The notes under the pieces were generated by a model that worked only from the letters and a program-made list of their open reading frames with translations, did not search any database and was not told the DNA's origin. This document shows positions 13,812 through 21,039 of a DNA stretch of 64,000 nucleotides, in pieces (position 1 is the stretch's first letter; each line of letters begins with the position of its first letter). Position numbers and translations under genes: made by a program. Origin of the DNA: a bacterium (GTDB lineage: Bacteria; Desulfobacterota; Binatia; DP-6); contig JAHCID010000001.1 in assembly GCA_026129405.1 (NCBI GenBank), positions 651,237 through 715,236 on the forward strand. The letters run 5' to 3'.

Positions 13812-14903
13812 ATGAGCTCCGATTTCCTCGTGGATCGTGCCGAGTGGCGTCGTTGCCGCGTGATCGACGCGGCGCCCGAGCCGGCGCCGGGCCCCGGGCA
13901 GGTGCTGCTGCGCGTCGATCGGTTCGCGCTCACCGCCAACAACGTCACCTACGCCGTCATCGGCGACATGCTCGGCTACTGGCGCTTCTTCCCGGCGGAC
14001 GACGGCTGGGGCCGCATTCCCGTCATGGGCTTCGGCGACGTGCTCGCGTCGCGCCACGCCGACGTCCGCGCGGGCGAGCGCGTGTTCGGCTTCTTCCCCA
14101 TGGCGACGCACCTCCTAGTCGACGCCGGCGACGCCGACGCCGCCAAGTTCGCCGACCTGGCTCCGCACCGCGCCGACACGGCGCCGGTCTACCGCCAGTA
14201 CCTGCGCACGACGACCGACGCCCTCTACGACCCGGCCCGCGAGGATCAGCTCCTGCTGCTGCGGGGCCTCTTCATGACCTCGTTCCTGGTCGACGACTTC
14301 CTCGGCGACAACGGCGGGTTCGGCGCGCGCACGTTCGTCGTCTCCAGCGCGTCGAGCAAGACCGCCATCGCGCTGGCGGCGCAGCTCCGTCGCCACCGGC
14401 GCGGCCGGGTGATCGGGCTCACCTCGGCGCGCAACGCCGACTTCGTCCGGGGCCTGCCGTACTACGATGGCGTCGTCGAGTACGACGCCATCGCGACGCT
14501 GCCGGCGGACGAGCCGATCGTCTTCGTCGACCACTCCGGCGACCGGGCGGTCGTCGACACGCTGCATCGCCACGTCGGCGACAACCTGCGTCACAGCGCC
14601 GTCGTCGGCGCCACGCACTGGCAGGGACGCCGCCCGTCGCGCGATCTGCCGGGCGCCCCGCCCACGTTCTTCTTCGCTCCGGCGCAGATCGAGAAGCGCA
14701 CGCGGGAGTGGGGGCCTGCCGGGCTCGAGGAGCGTCTCGGCGACGCCTGGCGCGCCTTCGTCGCCTCGAGCGACGCCTGGTTGGAGGTCGTGCGCGGGTA
14801 CGGCCCCGCCGCCGTGGAGCGCGCCTACCGCGAGGTCCTCGAGGGGCAGGCCCGACCGGAGCAGGGACACGTGCTCTCGATGTGGGACGAGGGCACGCGA
14901 TGA
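13812..14903 (+). CDS. DUF2855 family protein
   Basis: 363 residues from ATG 13812, with GGAAGGAGG upstream. The architecture looks like a quinone-oxidoreductase-type MDR fold without zinc: N-terminal GroES-like barrel (PGPGQVLLRVDRFALTANNVTYAV, then GDVLASRHADVRAGERVFGFFP) and a Rossmann-like half (TFVVSSASSKTAIALAAQL). Family function is unknown. Overlaps the DUF1330 gene by four bases (ATGA), showing translational coupling. Confidence 0.8.
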   Translation: MSSDFLVDRAEWRRCRVIDAAPEPAPGPGQVLLRVDRFALTANNVTYAVIGDMLGYWRFFPADDGWGRIPVMGFGDVLASRHADVRAGERVFGFFPMATHLLVDAGDADAAKFADLAPHRADTAPVYRQYLRTTTDALYDPAREDQLLLLRGLFMTSFLVDDFLGDNGGFGARTFVVSSASSKTAIALAAQLRRHRRGRVIGLTSARNADFVRGLPYYDGVVEYDAIATLPADEPIVFVDHSGDRAVVDTLHRHVGDNLRHSAVVGATHWQGRRPSRDLPGAPPTFFFAPAQIEKRTREWGPAGLEERLGDAWRAFVASSDAWLEVVRGYGPAAVERAYREVLEGQARPEQGHVLSMWDEGTR

Positions 14904-15334
14904 CGATCCGCATCGAGAACCGCCTGCACCCCGACGACGCGCAGATCGCGGCGCTGAAGGAGCCTGGATACGAGGGGCCGATCGCGATGCTGAACCTGCT
15001 CAAGTTCCGCGAGCGGGCGGCCTATCCCGACGGGCGCGACGCGGAGCTGTCCGGCCGCGAGGCGTTCCAGCGCTACGGCATGGCGTTCGCGCCGCTGCTC
15101 GAGGCCGCCGGCGGTCGCCTGATCTACGGCGGCAGGGTCTCGCTGCTCGCACTGGGCGCGGCCGAGGAGTTGTGGGACGCGGTCGTCGTCGTCGCGTACC
15201 CGAGCCGCCCGGCCTTCTTCCGCCTGACGCAGTCGCCGGAGTACCAGGCCGCCGCCGTCCACCGCGACGCCGGGCTCGCCGGACAGCTCCTCGTCGAGAC
15301 GGTGGGCTTCGGCGCGCACCCCGCGGCGGGCTGA
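14900..15334 (+). CDS. DUF1330 family protein
   Basis: 144 residues. GPIAMLNLLKFRERAAYPDG followed by a conserved Ser/Gly region (ELSGREAFQRYG) and a second strand set (LWDAVVVVAYPSRPAFFRLTQSPEYQ) mark the DUF1330 dimeric alpha-beta barrel. The reaction is unknown. The ATG overlaps the stop of the DUF2855 gene. A 92-base space follows before the DUF3604 operon. Confidence 0.8.
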   Translation: MTIRIENRLHPDDAQIAALKEPGYEGPIAMLNLLKFRERAAYPDGRDAELSGREAFQRYGMAFAPLLEAAGGRLIYGGRVSLLALGAAEELWDAVVVVAYPSRPAFFRLTQSPEYQAAAVHRDAGLAGQLLVETVGFGAHPAAG

Positions 15335-15426
15335 ATGCCGCGCCGCGCCGGATTATGGCAGCAGGTCTGCAAGAATCTGCTTGATCCGGCGGGGCGCTCC
15401 GCGCGAAGGTGCGCGCGGGGGGAGAC

Positions 15427-17850
15427 ATGATGGCTGCACGCGCCGCCCGTCTCGTCGTCGCATCCGCTCTGGGGCTCGTTTGGGGGCTCGTTTGGGGGAC
15501 CGTGCCGCCGGCCGCCCGGCCGGCGCTCGCTGCGCCGTTCCCGTGGAAACGCACGGAGGTACGTCAGCCCTGCGCCAACGCCGATCCGTTCCGACAGCCG
15601 TTCTTCGGCGAGACGCACATCCACACCGCCTACTCGTCGGACGCGGTCTTCGCCGGCACGCAGGAGACGCCGCGCGGCGCCTACCGCTTCGCGCGCGGCG
15701 AGGCCGTGGGCCTGCCGCCCTACGACGGGATGGGACAGCCGACGCGCACGGCGCAGCTGCGCCGGCCGCTCGACTTCGTCGCCGTCACCGATCACGCGGA
15801 GCAGTTCGGCGAGATCCATATCTGCCTCACCCCCGGCCTGCCGGGTTACGACTCCGCCGAGTGCGTCGGCGCGCGCAACCAGCTGGCGACGCCGCCCCCG
15901 CCGCTGCCGTCGCTCCTGCCGCCGATCGGCGTGATCCAGTTCCTCCTCGGCTACGGCGTCGCGACGCCGCCGCAGCGCTTCTCGTGGTGCGGACCGGGCG
16001 GCGTCGACTGCCTCGCGCAGGCGTCGCTCGTCTGGGACGACACCCAGGCCGCGGCCGAGGAGTTCTACGATCGCACCGACGCCTGCTCGCTGACGACGTT
16101 CGTCGCCTACGAGTGGAGCGCGCAGCCGGGCGGCAACAACCTTCACCGCAACGTCGTCTTTCGCAACGCCGTCGTGCCCGCGCTGCCGACGAGCTTCATG
16201 GAGGAGTACACCGCGACGGGCCTGTGGAACGCGCTGCGCACGCAGTGCCTCGACGGCCTGCCCGGCTGCGACGTGCTGGCGATCCCGCACAACCCGAACG
16301 TCAGCGGCGGCCTCATGTTCGCGCCGGTCGGCGAAGGGGGTGCACCGCTCACGCCGGACGAGGCGGCGTTCCGCGCCGGCATGGAGCCGGTCGTCGAGAT
16401 GAACCAGCACAAGGGCGACTCCGAGTGCCGCACCGGGATCGGCGGCAGCACCGACGAGGAGTGCGGTTTCGAGAAGCTGAACCGCCTCCAGCTCTTCGCC
16501 CCCGTATCCGATCCGAACCAGGCGTTCCCGCCGCTCAACTATGTCCGCAACGTCCTCGAGCAGGGGCTGCTCGAGGACGAGCGCATGGGCGTCAACCCGT
16601 TCCAGTTCGGCTTCGTCGGCAGCACCGACGGCCACAACGCCACGCCCGGCAGCACGGAGGAGGCCGACTTCGGCGACTTCGGCCACGTCGGTCTGCGTGA
16701 CCATGCGCAGCCCCTCTACATGGTGCAGCGGGTGACGCCGGCGGGCATCGAGGCGACGCCCGGCGGGCTCGCCGTCGTCTGGGCCGAGGAGAACTCGCGC
16801 GACGCCATCTTCGCCGCCATGCGCCGCCGCGAGGTGTACGGCACGAGCGGCGGGCGGCCGGTCGTGCGCTTCTTCGCCGGCCGCGAGAGCGGTCTGCGCT
16901 GCGGTGATCCCGACTTCGTGGAGAAGGCATACGCCGGCGGCGTGCCGATGGGCGGCGAGATCGGACCCGTGCGCGGCAAGACGAGCCCGCGCTTCGGGGT
17001 GCTGGCCTTCCGCGATCCCGGCGCGCCGGGCGTCGTGTCCGCGCCGCTCCAGCGCGTGCAGATCGTGAAGGGCTGGGTCGGCGCCGACGGCCAGTCGCGC
17101 GAGCGCGTGTTCGAGGTCGCGGGATCGAGGACCGGTGCGACCGTCGACACGCAGACGTGCACGCCGTCGGGGCCCGGCTACGATTCCCTCTGCGCGGTGT
17201 GGAGCGATCCCGACTTCGATCCGTCGCAGCGCGCCTTCTACTACGCCCGCGTGCTCGACAACCCGACCTGCCGCTGGAGCACGTATCTCTGCAACGCGCA
17301 GGGGATCGACTGTGCGAATCCCGGTGGGGTCCCGTCCGCGTGGAGCGAGTGCTGCAACCCGGCGGTGGCGAAGACGATCCAGGAGCGCGCCTGGTCGTCG
17401 CCGATCTGGTACCGGCCCGAGGGCGTCGTCCGCCTGCGCGGCGGCGTGAAGCAGCATCGGCGCAGCGGCCGGCAGCTCGTCGACCTCCGCCTCCAGCTCG
17501 GCGGTACGCCCGTCGGCTTCGATCCCGCGGCGCACGACCTCACCATCGCGCTGCGCGACGACGACGACGTCTTCACCGTCACCATCCCCGCCGGGACGAT
17601 GCGGGCGGCGGGCAACGGCTCGTTCCGCTACCAGGACGCCGCCGGCGGCCTCGGCGGCGTGCGCACGCTGCGGCTCGATCGCGTCGGCGGCGGCACCACG
17701 AAGCTGCGCCTGCGCACCGTGCCGGTCGCGCTGCCGGGCGCCGATTTCACCGATCACTTCATGGAGGTGTCGGTCGCGGCCGGGCCGAGCCGTGTGGTGG
17801 TGACGCCGTACTGGCGCGTCGCCGGGGCGAAGCTGAAGACGAGCTTCTGA
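15427..17850 (+). CDS. Secreted DUF3604 (PHP-like) metalloprotein
   Basis: 807 residues. A signal peptide (MMAARAARLVVASALGLVWG) leads to the DUF3604 domain, whose FFGETHIHTAYSS (residues 59-71, His64, His66) and VTDHAEQ (Asp122, His123) are the metal-binding motifs of PHP-type hydrolases. Further His/Asp residues are in IPHNPN and GSTDGHN. A C-terminal beta domain (about 640-807) follows, with many cysteines between 580 and 660. Predicted periplasmic or surface; substrate unknown. First gene of a four-gene operon. ATG 15427 has GGGGGGAG upstream. Confidence 0.85.
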   Translation: MMAARAARLVVASALGLVWGLVWGTVPPAARPALAAPFPWKRTEVRQPCANADPFRQPFFGETHIHTAYSSDAVFAGTQETPRGAYRFARGEAVGLPPYDGMGQPTRTAQLRRPLDFVAVTDHAEQFGEIHICLTPGLPGYDSAECVGARNQLATPPPPLPSLLPPIGVIQFLLGYGVATPPQRFSWCGPGGVDCLAQASLVWDDTQAAAEEFYDRTDACSLTTFVAYEWSAQPGGNNLHRNVVFRNAVVPALPTSFMEEYTATGLWNALRTQCLDGLPGCDVLAIPHNPNVSGGLMFAPVGEGGAPLTPDEAAFRAGMEPVVEMNQHKGDSECRTGIGGSTDEECGFEKLNRLQLFAPVSDPNQAFPPLNYVRNVLEQGLLEDERMGVNPFQFGFVGSTDGHNATPGSTEEADFGDFGHVGLRDHAQPLYMVQRVTPAGIEATPGGLAVVWAEENSRDAIFAAMRRREVYGTSGGRPVVRFFAGRESGLRCGDPDFVEKAYAGGVPMGGEIGPVRGKTSPRFGVLAFRDPGAPGVVSAPLQRVQIVKGWVGADGQSRERVFEVAGSRTGATVDTQTCTPSGPGYDSLCAVWSDPDFDPSQRAFYYARVLDNPTCRWSTYLCNAQGIDCANPGGVPSAWSECCNPAVAKTIQERAWSSPIWYRPEGVVRLRGGVKQHRRSGRQLVDLRLQLGGTPVGFDPAAHDLTIALRDDDDVFTVTIPAGTMRAAGNGSFRYQDAAGGLGGVRTLRLDRVGGGTTKLRLRTVPVALPGADFTDHFMEVSVAAGPSRVVVTPYWRVAGAKLKTSF
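15471..15498 (+). repeat. 12-bp tandem repeat in the DUF3604 signal region
   Basis: GGGGCTCGTTTG occurs twice back to back (15471-15482, 15483-15494), then GGGG. It codes for GLVWGLVWG in the hydrophobic core of the signal peptide. Slippage here would add or remove four residues. Confidence 0.9.
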
Positions 17851-17856
17851 CGGTCG

Positions 17857-18810
17857 ATGCGCCGGCTCCTGCGCCAGCCCCTGCTCCACTTCCTCGCCGG
17901 GGGCGCCGTCCTCTTCGTGCTCGTGCGCGGGCCTGCGGCGCCGGCGCCGGCGACACCCGACGTCGTCCCCATCGTCGTCAGCGCCGGCGACGTCGAGCGG
18001 CTGCGGCGCGCGCACACGCGCGAGGCCGGTCTGGTCGCCACCGCCGCCGACGAGGCCGGACTGATCGAGCGCGCGATCGACGACGAGGTGCTCTACCGCG
18101 AGGCCCTGGCGCGCGGTCTCGATCGCGACCGCAGCGTGCGCAACTGGCTCGTCGAGCAGATGCACGTGCTCGAGCCGGACGCCGCCGCGGACGACGACGC
18201 CCTCCTGGCGAAGGCCCGGGCGCTCGGGCTCGACCGCACCGACCTCGTCGTGCGGCGCATGCTCGTCCAGAAGATGCGTCTCCTCGCCTCGCGCGAGGGC
18301 GAGCAGCCCCCGACCGACGCCGACCTGGCGACGTTCTGGAGCCGCCACGCCGACGACTACCGCCTGCCCGAGCGCGTGACGCTGTGGCAGGTGTTCGTGC
18401 CCGACTACGCCGACGCCGAGGCGCTGCTGGCGACGCTGCGCCGCGGGGGCACGCCGCCCGCGGAGGGCGCACGGCGCGGGCAGACGTTCGCCGCGCCGCC
18501 CTACCTCCGCGAGCAATCCCCCGCCGATCTACGGCGCCGCTTCGGTCCCGGCGCCGCCGAGCGGGTTGCCGCCGCGCCGATCGGCGCCTGGAGCGCGCCG
18601 ATCGGCTCCGCGTACGGCTGGCATCTCGTGTGGGTCGCGTCGCGCACGCCGGGCACGCTGCCGGCGATCGAGACGGTGCGCGGCAGGCTCGCCGAACGCT
18701 GGCTCGACGAGCAGCGGACGCAGCGCTTCGCGGCGACGCTGCGGGCGCTGCGCGACCGCCACCCGCTGCAGATCGAGTCCGCCGCCTGGCACGCGCGGAG
18801 CCGCTCGTGA
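17857..18810 (+). CDS. Membrane-anchored parvulin-type peptidyl-prolyl isomerase (PpiC)
   Basis: 317 residues. One N-terminal anchor (about residues 8-25) then a helical linker with SurA-like features (AGLIERAIDDEVLYREALARG) and a PpiC-like rotamase domain in about residues 150-290 (SAPIGSAYGWHLVWVASR matches the C-terminal rotamase strand). Predicted to face the periplasm and assist folding of exported proteins. The rotamase core is divergent, so a pure chaperone role is possible. Starts six bases after DUF3604; its TGA overlaps the GTG of the next gene. Confidence 0.75.
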   Translation: MRRLLRQPLLHFLAGGAVLFVLVRGPAAPAPATPDVVPIVVSAGDVERLRRAHTREAGLVATAADEAGLIERAIDDEVLYREALARGLDRDRSVRNWLVEQMHVLEPDAAADDDALLAKARALGLDRTDLVVRRMLVQKMRLLASREGEQPPTDADLATFWSRHADDYRLPERVTLWQVFVPDYADAEALLATLRRGGTPPAEGARRGQTFAAPPYLREQSPADLRRRFGPGAAERVAAAPIGAWSAPIGSAYGWHLVWVASRTPGTLPAIETVRGRLAERWLDEQRTQRFAATLRALRDRHPLQIESAAWHARSRS

Positions 18811-19787
18811 GGGGGCTCCTGCTCCTCCTCTGCCTCCTGCCCGTGCGCGCGGCGTTCGGGCACGGGCTCGACCCCGCCCTGCTCTCGCTCGACGGCACCG
18901 GCGACGGCCGCTTCGCGGTGACCTGGCGCACGTCGGCCCAGCGTCTTCCGGGCGCCGACGTGCGGCCCATCCTACCCGCGCATTGCCGCCCCGGCGACGC
19001 GAGCCCGCCGGAGGCGACGCTCGAGCACGTGACCCTGCGCTGGACGATCGACTGCGGCGCCGCCGGCCTCGTCGGCGAGACGATCCGCGTGCAGGATCTC
19101 GACGCCGCGCGCATCAACGCGCTCCTGCGCATCGAGCAGCCGAGTGCGCCGACGATCCAGGTCGTGCTCTCGCCGCGTCACGACGCGTTCGTCGTGCCGG
19201 CGCAGCCGACGGCGTGGGACGTCGTGCGCGGCTACGTGGGGCTCGGCGTCGAGCACATCCTCTCGGGCCCCGACCATCTCCTCTTCGTCTTCGGGCTTCT
19301 CCTTTTGCTCGCGACGCCGCGCGCCCTGCTCGCCGCGGTGACGGCGTTCACGGTGGGACACAGCCTCACGCTGTCGGCGGCGGCGCTCGGCCTGGCGACG
19401 GTGCCGTCGCGTCCGATCGAGGTGCTGATCGCGGCCAGCGTGCTGGCGCTGGCGGTGGAGCTCACCCGCGACGGCGGCGACACGGCGATGCGGCGCTTCC
19501 CCTGGATCGTCGCGCTCGGCTTCGGCCTGCTGCACGGCTTCGGCTTCGCCGGCGCCCTCGCCGAGACCGGGCTGCCGCCGGGCGACATCCCGCTCGCGCT
19601 TCTTGCGTTCAACACCGGCATCGAGCTCGGCCAGCTGGCGTTCATCGCGGCGGTGCTGGCGTCGGGCGCCCTGGCGTGGCGCGCGCTGCCGGCGGCCGCC
19701 GCCTGGGCGCGCCGGCCCGCGATCTACGCGATGGGCATCCTGGCCGCGTTCTGGTGCTTCGAGCGCACGGCGGTCTGGCTCGGCTGA
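18807..19787 (+). CDS. HupE/UreJ-type membrane protein (predicted metal permease)
   Basis: 326 residues from GTG 18807, overlapping the parvulin stop. A signal-like segment (to residue 18, AFGHG) precedes a ~110-residue exported domain, then six or seven membrane helices. GVEHILSGPDHLLF (His150, Asp156, His157) is the HxxxxxDH-type metal motif of HupE/UreJ proteins, repeated in spirit by FTVGHS and LHGFGFAG. HupE and UreJ carry nickel or related metals; here the metal is unknown. Context suggests metal supply to the DUF3604 enzyme. Confidence 0.8.
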   Translation: MRGLLLLLCLLPVRAAFGHGLDPALLSLDGTGDGRFAVTWRTSAQRLPGADVRPILPAHCRPGDASPPEATLEHVTLRWTIDCGAAGLVGETIRVQDLDAARINALLRIEQPSAPTIQVVLSPRHDAFVVPAQPTAWDVVRGYVGLGVEHILSGPDHLLFVFGLLLLLATPRALLAAVTAFTVGHSLTLSAAALGLATVPSRPIEVLIAASVLALAVELTRDGGDTAMRRFPWIVALGFGLLHGFGFAGALAETGLPPGDIPLALLAFNTGIELGQLAFIAAVLASGALAWRALPAAAAWARRPAIYAMGILAAFWCFERTAVWLG

Positions 19788-20392
19788 TGGTCTGGCTCGT
19801 CGCGCTGCTGCTCTACGCCGGCTTCCTCGGCTGGTACCAGAACTGGCGCGGGCCGCTCACGCCCGCGGAGGTCGAGCGCTTCATGGGCCAGCTCGAAGCC
19901 AAGAGCCTCGGCACGCCGGCGGAGCGCAGCCACATCCGCGCCTTCCTCGCGGCCGACGACGGCGGCGAGTTCCACATGCTGAACCTCGTGCGCCTGCACG
20001 CGGAGCAGGTGCCGAACCCGGTCACGGGCGAGCTGCAGACCGGGCGCCAGCTGCTCGAGGGCTACACGGCGCCGTTCGTGCGCGCGCTCTTCCGGCGCGG
20101 GGGACACCCGGCCTTCCTCGGCTTCCCGATCGGCGACGTGGTCGACACCTGGGGCGTCGAGCCGCCGCCGCGCTGGTCGCTCGTCGGCATGATGCGCTAC
20201 CGCAGCCGCCGCGACATGATCGAGCTCGTCGTCTCCGACCGGTTCTCGTCCGTGCACGTGCTGAAGCACGCCGCGATGCCGGCGACGACGTCGTTCCCGA
20301 TGAGCCGCACGCGCTTCATGATGGGCCCGCGCGTGTGGGTCGCGCTGCTCCTGCTGCTCGGCGCGGCGCTCGTGAAGCTGGCGCTGCGCTAG
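19787..20392 (+). CDS. Membrane-anchored DUF1330-like protein
   Basis: 201 residues. Hydrophobic segments lie at both ends (residues 2-14 and about 182-200), the middle is soluble. The core carries EFHMLNLVRLH, GFPIGDVVDTWG and RWSLVGMMRYRSRRDM, a layout very like the DUF1330 protein at 14900 (AMLNLLKF, LIYGGRV, WDAVVVVAYPS). Function unknown. Its ATG overlaps the permease stop by one base and its TAG shares four bases with the convergent isomerase gene stop. Probable fourth operon member. Confidence 0.7.
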   Translation: MVWLVALLLYAGFLGWYQNWRGPLTPAEVERFMGQLEAKSLGTPAERSHIRAFLAADDGGEFHMLNLVRLHAEQVPNPVTGELQTGRQLLEGYTAPFVRALFRRGGHPAFLGFPIGDVVDTWGVEPPPRWSLVGMMRYRSRRDMIELVVSDRFSSVHVLKHAAMPATTSFPMSRTRFMMGPRVWVALLLLLGAALVKLALR

Positions 20393-21039
20393 GCGCGCTC
20401 GCGCAGGCCGCGCTGGCGCAGGCGCCACAGCAGCAGCTCGATGCGGTCCTGCCCGAAGAACGCCTCGTCCTCGAACACCATCGTCGGCACGCCCCAGTGG
20501 CCGGCGGCGGTGAGCGCCTCCTGGTTGGCGGCGATGATCGCGTCGTAGCGGGCGGGTTCGGCCTCGATCGCCGCGTCCATGACGGCGAGGTCGCAGCCGG
20601 CGCGGGCGGCGGCGTCGGCGAGGCGTGTCCCTTCGTTCCAGTCCGGCTCGCCGCCCCAGATGAGGCGCGACACCTGGTCGACGAACGCGAGCCCGCGGCC
20701 GCGCAGCGTCGCGTCGACGCCGAGCCGCGTCAGGCGGTAGATGTACGGCTGCTCGGGCGAGACCTGGCGCGTGGCGTAGTCCTGCACGATCGGGTCGGGC
20801 TGCGGCCAGCCGTAGGGCAGGCCGAGAAACTGCGCGATGCGGTAGGTGTCGCGCATCAGGTAGGGCGGCCAGAGCGGGTTCACGTTGGTGAAGAAGTCCT
20901 TGATGCGCACCGCGATCGGCAGCACCGGGCGGACGCGGACGTCGACCTCGTAGCGAGCGGCGATGTCCACCAGGCGCGGCGTGGCCAGGTACGAGTACGG
21001 GCTGCGGAAGGACCAGAAGACGTCGACGGCGAGGGACAT
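20389..21039 (-). CDS. 2-hydroxychromene-2-carboxylate isomerase-like (DsbA-fold) protein
   Basis: 216 residues. DVFWSFRSPYSYLATPRL at the N-terminus and GHWGVPTMVFEDEAFFGQDRI near the C-terminus are marks of the HCCA isomerase/kappa-class GST group, which has a thioredoxin fold with an inserted helical domain and uses glutathione in aromatic breakdown. The Ser of the SPYSY motif is the likely catalytic residue. The true substrate is unknown. Converges with the DUF1330-like gene; the CTAG at 20389-20392 supplies both stops. Confidence 0.8.
   Translation of the reverse strand: MSLAVDVFWSFRSPYSYLATPRLVDIAARYEVDVRVRPVLPIAVRIKDFFTNVNPLWPPYLMRDTYRIAQFLGLPYGWPQPDPIVQDYATRQVSPEQPYIYRLTRLGVDATLRGRGLAFVDQVSRLIWGGEPDWNEGTRLADAAARAGCDLAVMDAAIEAEPARYDAIIAANQEALTAAGHWGVPTMVFEDEAFFGQDRIELLLWRLRQRGLRERA

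Follow-up and report, generated by a model that had tools for sequence, protein, structure and literature searches.

Within a window of 64,000 nt from a bacterium of the class Binatia (assembly GCA_026129405.1, contig JAHCID010000001.1, positions 651,237 to 715,236 of the forward strand), we analysed a run of genes encoding a DUF3604 protein, a PpiC-type parvulin, a membrane protein of the HupE_UreJ_2 family (hereafter HupE) and a fourth protein (Table 1). An earlier sequence-only reading of this DNA had reported four plus-strand genes spaced by 6, -4 and -1 bases; all of these open reading frames (ORFs) are present and their coordinates are exact, the overlap between PpiC and HupE consisting of the bases GTGA. 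The same reading had grouped the four genes into a single unit. We find that DUF3604, PpiC and HupE form a genuine conserved three-gene unit, which occurs in at least eight phyla, and that the fourth gene lies outside of it, as a passenger at this locus.

Table 1. Genes, protein regions and leader of the DUF3604/PpiC/HupE locus (positions in the window)
Feature	Position	Strand	Description
Leader with two strong RNA hairpins	15340..15419	+	within the 92 bases between the DUF1330 gene and DUF3604
DUF3604 gene	15427..17850	+	807 aa; PF12228, E=2e-163 over profile positions 4-591 of 591
DUF3604 protein regions			N-terminal signal-like segment; predicted PHP-fold domain (~53-563) including an Ig-like part; C-terminal beta-sandwich region
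PpiC/Rotamase_2 gene	17857..18810	+	317 aa; predicted membrane-anchored extracytoplasmic parvulin; PF13145, E=4.2e-17
HupE_UreJ_2 gene	18807..19787	+	326 aa; GTG start; PF13795, E=3.5e-44
HupE protein regions			signal peptide; predicted periplasmic beta-sandwich from the mature N-terminal His; six-helix membrane domain
Fourth gene	19787..20392	+	201 aa; membrane segment at both termini; no Pfam/NCBIfam family

In the bacterium's own genome (5.63 Mb) all five DUF3604 loci coincide with all five HupE_UreJ_2 genes, and PpiC is present at each of them; the gene order is DUF3604-PpiC-HupE at four loci, one of which (L041) is a divergent version, and HupE-DUF3604-PpiC at the fifth (L043). A scan of species genomes with a HupE alignment yielded 80 named loci, of which 74 carry PpiC immediately 5' of HupE, with a 4-base overlap between the two genes in 33 of the 74. 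Three of the six remaining loci lie at contig edges, and in another (L068) one small ORF stands between the genes. DUF3604 is found within 47 of the 80 loci, mostly upstream and at times downstream of the pair, and also in tandem copies around a single PpiC-HupE pair, with three copies each in L080, L106 and L113 and six in a row in a Vicinamibacteria metagenome-assembled genome (L073, 1834-14928). According to the record titles, from which the phyla were assigned, the pair occurs in Pseudomonadota, Myxococcota, Bacteroidota, Cyanobacteriota, Acidobacteriota, Verrucomicrobiota, Thermodesulfobacteriota and Gemmatimonadota; no relatives were found in viral contigs. Two cassettes (L071 and L132) come from bins whose titles, Klebsiella pneumoniae and Akkermansia muciniphila respectively, are doubtful and unusable as host records.

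The neighbourhood survey thus bears out the expectation that the genes are kept together across phyla for DUF3604, PpiC and HupE, and contradicts it for the fourth gene. The latter is absent beside the four other cassettes of the own genome and beside cassettes elsewhere; homologues exist in 18 of 58 genomes of the class, and where checked (G018 and G056) these copies lie away from the cassette. The four-gene unit was therefore dismissed, since the fourth gene does not accompany the other three in other cassettes, and with it the idea that the fourth protein is a member of the unit. Its description as DUF1330-like stands as a resemblance only, as Pfam and NCBIfam scans returned no family for this protein and the true DUF1330 gene lies upstream (14900-15334). 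In the window, a DUF1330 protein thus precedes the unit and a DUF1330-like membrane protein comes right after it.

We then compared gene content in 299 evenly drawn Pseudomonadota genomes, counting DUF3604 as present at E<1e-15. Nineteen of them were DUF3604-positive, and PpiC was coupled to HupE in 17 of these 19 compared to 1 of the 280 DUF3604-negative genomes (Fisher's exact test, p ~1e-24, uncorrected for phylogeny); 16 of the 17 positives were read from the DNA of the genomes, and G299 was counted as the genome of locus L067. The two exceptions among the positives are G442, which is without HupE, and G351, in which the beginning of DUF3604 and the final part of HupE are fused in a single ORF (L232 3040-4038, contig G351:C2, minus strand), the arrangement expected if one deletion had taken out most of DUF3604, PpiC and the N-terminal domain of HupE. 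A clear HupE_UreJ_2 gene is present in 41 of the 280 DUF3604-negative genomes; all 41 were inspected, and only in G561 (L243) does a PpiC, a divergent one, adjoin HupE. The HupE_UreJ_2 paralogues of DUF3604-positive genomes also occur without PpiC. The link between DUF3604, PpiC and one clade of HupE is hence seen directly in their co-occurrence.

This clade is delimited in a tree of the HupE membrane domain (175 rows), where one branch (Shimodaira-Hasegawa-like approximate likelihood ratio test, SH-aLRT, 98) unites all 104 PpiC-linked proteins with 4 PpiC-less and 3 untestable ones, and none of the 64 rows on the other side is PpiC-linked. Judged by sequence, HupE_UreJ_2 is split into a clade linked to PpiC and DUF3604 and a stand-alone group, which includes a relative of the only solved anglerase: the PpiC-less HupE of L189 matches this structure (9GCE) by sequence (E=8e-8), and searches with the cassette HupE gave no match to it at E<=1 or at E<=10. 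The dependence is clearly asymmetric, with the PpiC-linked HupE clade implying DUF3604, and DUF3604 being able to exist without HupE. Indeed, where PpiC-HupE loci have no adjacent DUF3604 gene, 24 of 24 genomes carry DUF3604 elsewhere, 23 of them strongly. These 24 genomes hold 1-3 full-length cassette HupEs and 1-32 DUF3604 matches (fragments included), e.g. ~32 matches with one or two cassette HupEs in Candidatus Litorirhabdus singularis (G314, L125). Since one or two pairs serve up to ~30 DUF3604 matches per genome, we regard PpiC-HupE as a shared helper; the proposal that the unit is devoted to one exported metalloenzyme gives way to that of a tight pair coexisting with many DUF3604 copies.

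Sequence searches of solved structures returned no match for DUF3604, PpiC or the cassette HupE, and Foldseek by itself was uninformative, giving mostly Ig-like matches; the DUF3604 and HupE models were resolved with VIA-align. The AlphaFold model of DUF3604 (predicted local distance difference test, pLDDT, 86.7) aligns with the PHP-like phosphoesterase BVU_3505 (PDB 3e38_A; Z 16.1, root-mean-square deviation (rmsd) 3.4, 236 aligned residues), the next match reaching only Z 6.0. Residues H64, H66, D116, H123, E229, H240, H288, D401 and H403 are invariant in 55 of 55 DUF3604 sequences, and a profile comparison with hhalign against only three PHP domains of the own genome, weak as it is (47.5% over 61 columns), aligns the HxH and TDH motifs. 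DUF3604 is therefore probably a PHP-fold, metal-dependent hydrolase, and the PHP-type metal motifs reported earlier are supported by the predicted fold and the invariant ligands. It shares with the PHP-family phosphoesterases the predicted fold and the ligand set HxH...TDH...E...H...DxH, and differs from them by large insertions, extra beta domains and predicted export. Its N-terminus is similar to a signal sequence, and the sequences of some homologues read like those of lipoproteins, which points to an exported protein.

The window HupE exceeds the PF13795 cut-off by far (150.7 bits, cut-off 24.5), and its model is confident (pLDDT 92.6). With the signal-peptide cleavage site assigned by eye, the mature protein would begin with His19, which is kept in 66 of 71 cassette HupEs (Ala precedes it in 62 of 71), and both cysteines of a Cys60-Cys83 pair are present in 56 of 71. 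The HX5DH signature and further membrane residues (H150, D156, H157, H185, E205, E218, H243 and E273) are found in all 71. We infer that HupE carries a periplasmic, His1-bearing beta-sandwich above a membrane domain with many invariant His, Asp and Glu residues. The solved folds nearest to the N-terminal domain (VIA-align) are ZrgA (Z 10.3) and PA4063 (Z 9.6), periplasmic zinc-binding proteins that share its fold, with only ~13% identity, and are stand-alone and soluble; the copper-bound structure of the Ang-1 domain, 9gce, can be superimposed on it as well (Z 8.3, rmsd 3.0 over 104 residues). The top structural matches of the membrane domain (residues 133-326) are 7vcf_A (Z 10.4 over 185 residues) and 8z9y_A (Z 8.3), chains that we take to be Tic214, the entries themselves naming only the chloroplast TOC-TIC import complex. 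Two entries of one complex thus head this list, and helical bundles can match fortuitously here.

Domains with an N-terminal His on HupE/UreJ-2 proteins, the only relatives of this N-terminal domain that have been characterised, were named 'anglerases', reported to bind Cu and Ni, and proposed to capture metal and feed the permease for uptake (PMC12537917, 2025); the main text of that paper mentions neither an isomerase nor DUF3604. Like Ang-1 and Ang-2 (PMC12537917, PDB 9GCE), the cassette HupE has a HupE_UreJ_2 membrane domain behind a periplasmic Ig-like beta-sandwich starting with His. Unlike Ang-1, its N-terminal domain is shorter (~115 compared to 168 residues), carries the conserved pair of cysteines and is linked to PpiC and DUF3604. 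With the HupE/UreJ nickel permeases of hydrogenase and urease operons it shares the HX5DH signature and the membrane domain family, and it differs from them by the extra periplasmic domain and the PpiC partner.

Across the PpiC family an N-terminal anchor motif (PLxHFxxxG) is conserved, and the C-terminal parvulin His256 is retained in 81 of 84 sequences; from its sequence, PpiC appears to be anchored in the inner membrane with the parvulin domain in the periplasm. NifM, PrsA and SurA are parvulins dedicated to maturing particular clients, a role that PpiC would share with them. The window protein gives only a weak match to the NifM profile (E=0.0018, under the NifM cut-off), and its membrane anchor and its coupling to a HupE protein set it apart from parvulins of the NifM, PrsA and SurA type.

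On its 5' side the unit is preceded directly by the DUF1330 gene (Pfam E=1e-8), which itself overlaps a DUF2855 gene by 4 bases and ends 92 bases before DUF3604. The leader in this gap is unusually stable (minimum free energy -54.7 kcal/mol, z = -3.67; 0 of 200 shuffles equally stable); its hairpins gave no meaningful Rfam hit, and a scan for promoter and terminator consensus found no signal. The 3' limit is set where the fourth gene runs into a convergent DsbA-like gene (20389-21039, minus strand).

At other loci, no recurrent fourth partner was found among 120 flanking genes scanned, except for one common Halieaceae synteny with an enoyl-CoA hydratase, and no hydrogenase or urease genes occur among the annotated or Pfam-scanned neighbours. 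DUF1254, sulfatase, TonB, cation diffusion facilitator and COG0523 neighbours are sporadic only. In two cyanobacteria (L080 2668-3642 and L091 154-846) PpiC-HupE is immediately preceded by a cation diffusion facilitator gene, plasmid pSC52_1 (L146, 3816-12148) carries in one run DUF3604, a short HupE, PpiC, HupE, two GTP-binding proteins (COG0523-type) and DUF1826, an array that resembles a zinc-starvation gene set, and ExbBD-TonB genes are found near the cassette of Ruegeria THAF33. TonB-dependent receptors adjoin the pair in L095 and L138. Proteins of the cytochrome c554/c7 type with CxxCH motifs adjoin PpiC-HupE in two unrelated loci (L068 4128-6464 and L133 7957-9909).

Reading the sequences and models together, we put at roughly even chances the view that the cassette consists of an extracytoplasmic DUF3604 enzyme and a dedicated PpiC-HupE helper pair handling its folding and metal. 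PpiC would help to fold exported proteins of the system, i.e. DUF3604 and/or the disulfide-bearing HupE domain; HupE would capture a transition metal in the periplasm and control its supply; and DUF3604 enzymes encoded anywhere in the genome would be folded and metal-loaded by one common pair. In this form, for three genes instead of four, the combination of exported metalloenzyme, foldase and metal protein suggested by the sequence-only reading is upheld as an interpretation of predicted folds and conserved residues. A further step, namely that this HupE_UreJ_2 clade and its parvulin act as a periplasmic metal-delivery and folding station for a secreted PHP-fold enzyme family, instead of or besides importing metal, is possible, and we advance it only tentatively.

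Several observations weigh against the helper model. DUF3604 occurs without any HupE_UreJ_2 in four genomes (G011, G085, G049 and G236), so the helper is not strictly required, and G095 has PpiC-HupE with no DUF3604 found, the pair sitting on a 4.9-kb contig. In the window PpiC, Gln replaces the first parvulin His, a position occupied by His in 40 and by Gln in 41 of 84 family members, which makes prolyl isomerase activity of this protein doubtful; because only one of the two active-site His is kept, we restrict the claim to a parvulin fold and chaperone, and PpiC may be more of a chaperone than an isomerase. Finally, HupE-type proteins are commonly regarded as importers, and import alone does not metallate a periplasmic enzyme.

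The main rival explanation is the acquisition of metal or of a metal ligand, in which hydrolysis by DUF3604 of a compound in the periplasm or outside the cell frees a metal or a phosphoester-type product, the HupE sandwich catches the metal, the membrane domain imports it, and PpiC only folds the HupE domain. It is favoured by the Cu and Ni binding of the published N-domain relatives and its reading as permease feeding (PMC12537917), by the closer tie of PpiC to HupE (74/80) than to DUF3604 (47/80), and by the metal and TonB genes near some cassettes, such as those of the two cyanobacteria, pSC52_1 and Ruegeria THAF33. However, these metal genes are not recurrent as neighbours, up to ~30 DUF3604 matches per genome are hard to fit with metal scavenging, and other HupE_UreJ_2 proteins occur without PpiC or DUF3604 in the 41 DUF3604-negative genomes, so that uptake alone fails to explain why one clade tracks DUF3604; we consider acquisition rather unlikely. 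Less probable still is a role of PpiC and HupE in handling not metal but the product or substrate of DUF3604, in which HupE would transport an organic product or act on it as a membrane enzyme, and PpiC would be the chaperone of a partner that is secreted or sits in the outer membrane. The invariant His/Asp/Glu set of the membrane domain could be catalytic, the best structural neighbour of this domain is Tic214 and no known metal transporter, and TonB-dependent receptors adjoin the pair at two loci, but matches of helical bundles at this Z level can be fortuitous, and metal is indicated by the conservation of the N-terminal His (66/71) and by the similarity in fold to proteins that bind Zn and Cu. 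That the gene order reflects mere coincidence or hitch-hiking with no common role is very hard to credit: DUF3604 can stand alone and the co-directional overlap of the fourth gene in the window illustrates that such an arrangement need not imply a common role, but order and 4-base overlap are conserved across phyla, the contrast of 17/19 to 1/280 is steep, and the linked HupEs form a single clade.

In keeping with the earlier reading, to which no described system with this set was known, the literature searched contains no description of DUF3604/PpiC/HupE and mentions DUF3604 in a single paper, for a Chlamydia gene. A relative of the HupE architecture has been published, whereas neither the three-gene system nor the HupE clade by which it is defined seems to have been described in that literature. 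Three vague annotations (DUF3604, 'peptidylprolyl isomerase' and 'HupE/UreJ family protein') are thereby turned into one testable system present in at least eight phyla, and DUF3604, on which there is hardly any literature, gains a predicted fold and metal site, a probable location and candidate helper proteins. If it is true that the helper pair metallates enzymes outside the cytoplasm, this way of maturing metalloenzymes would be new.

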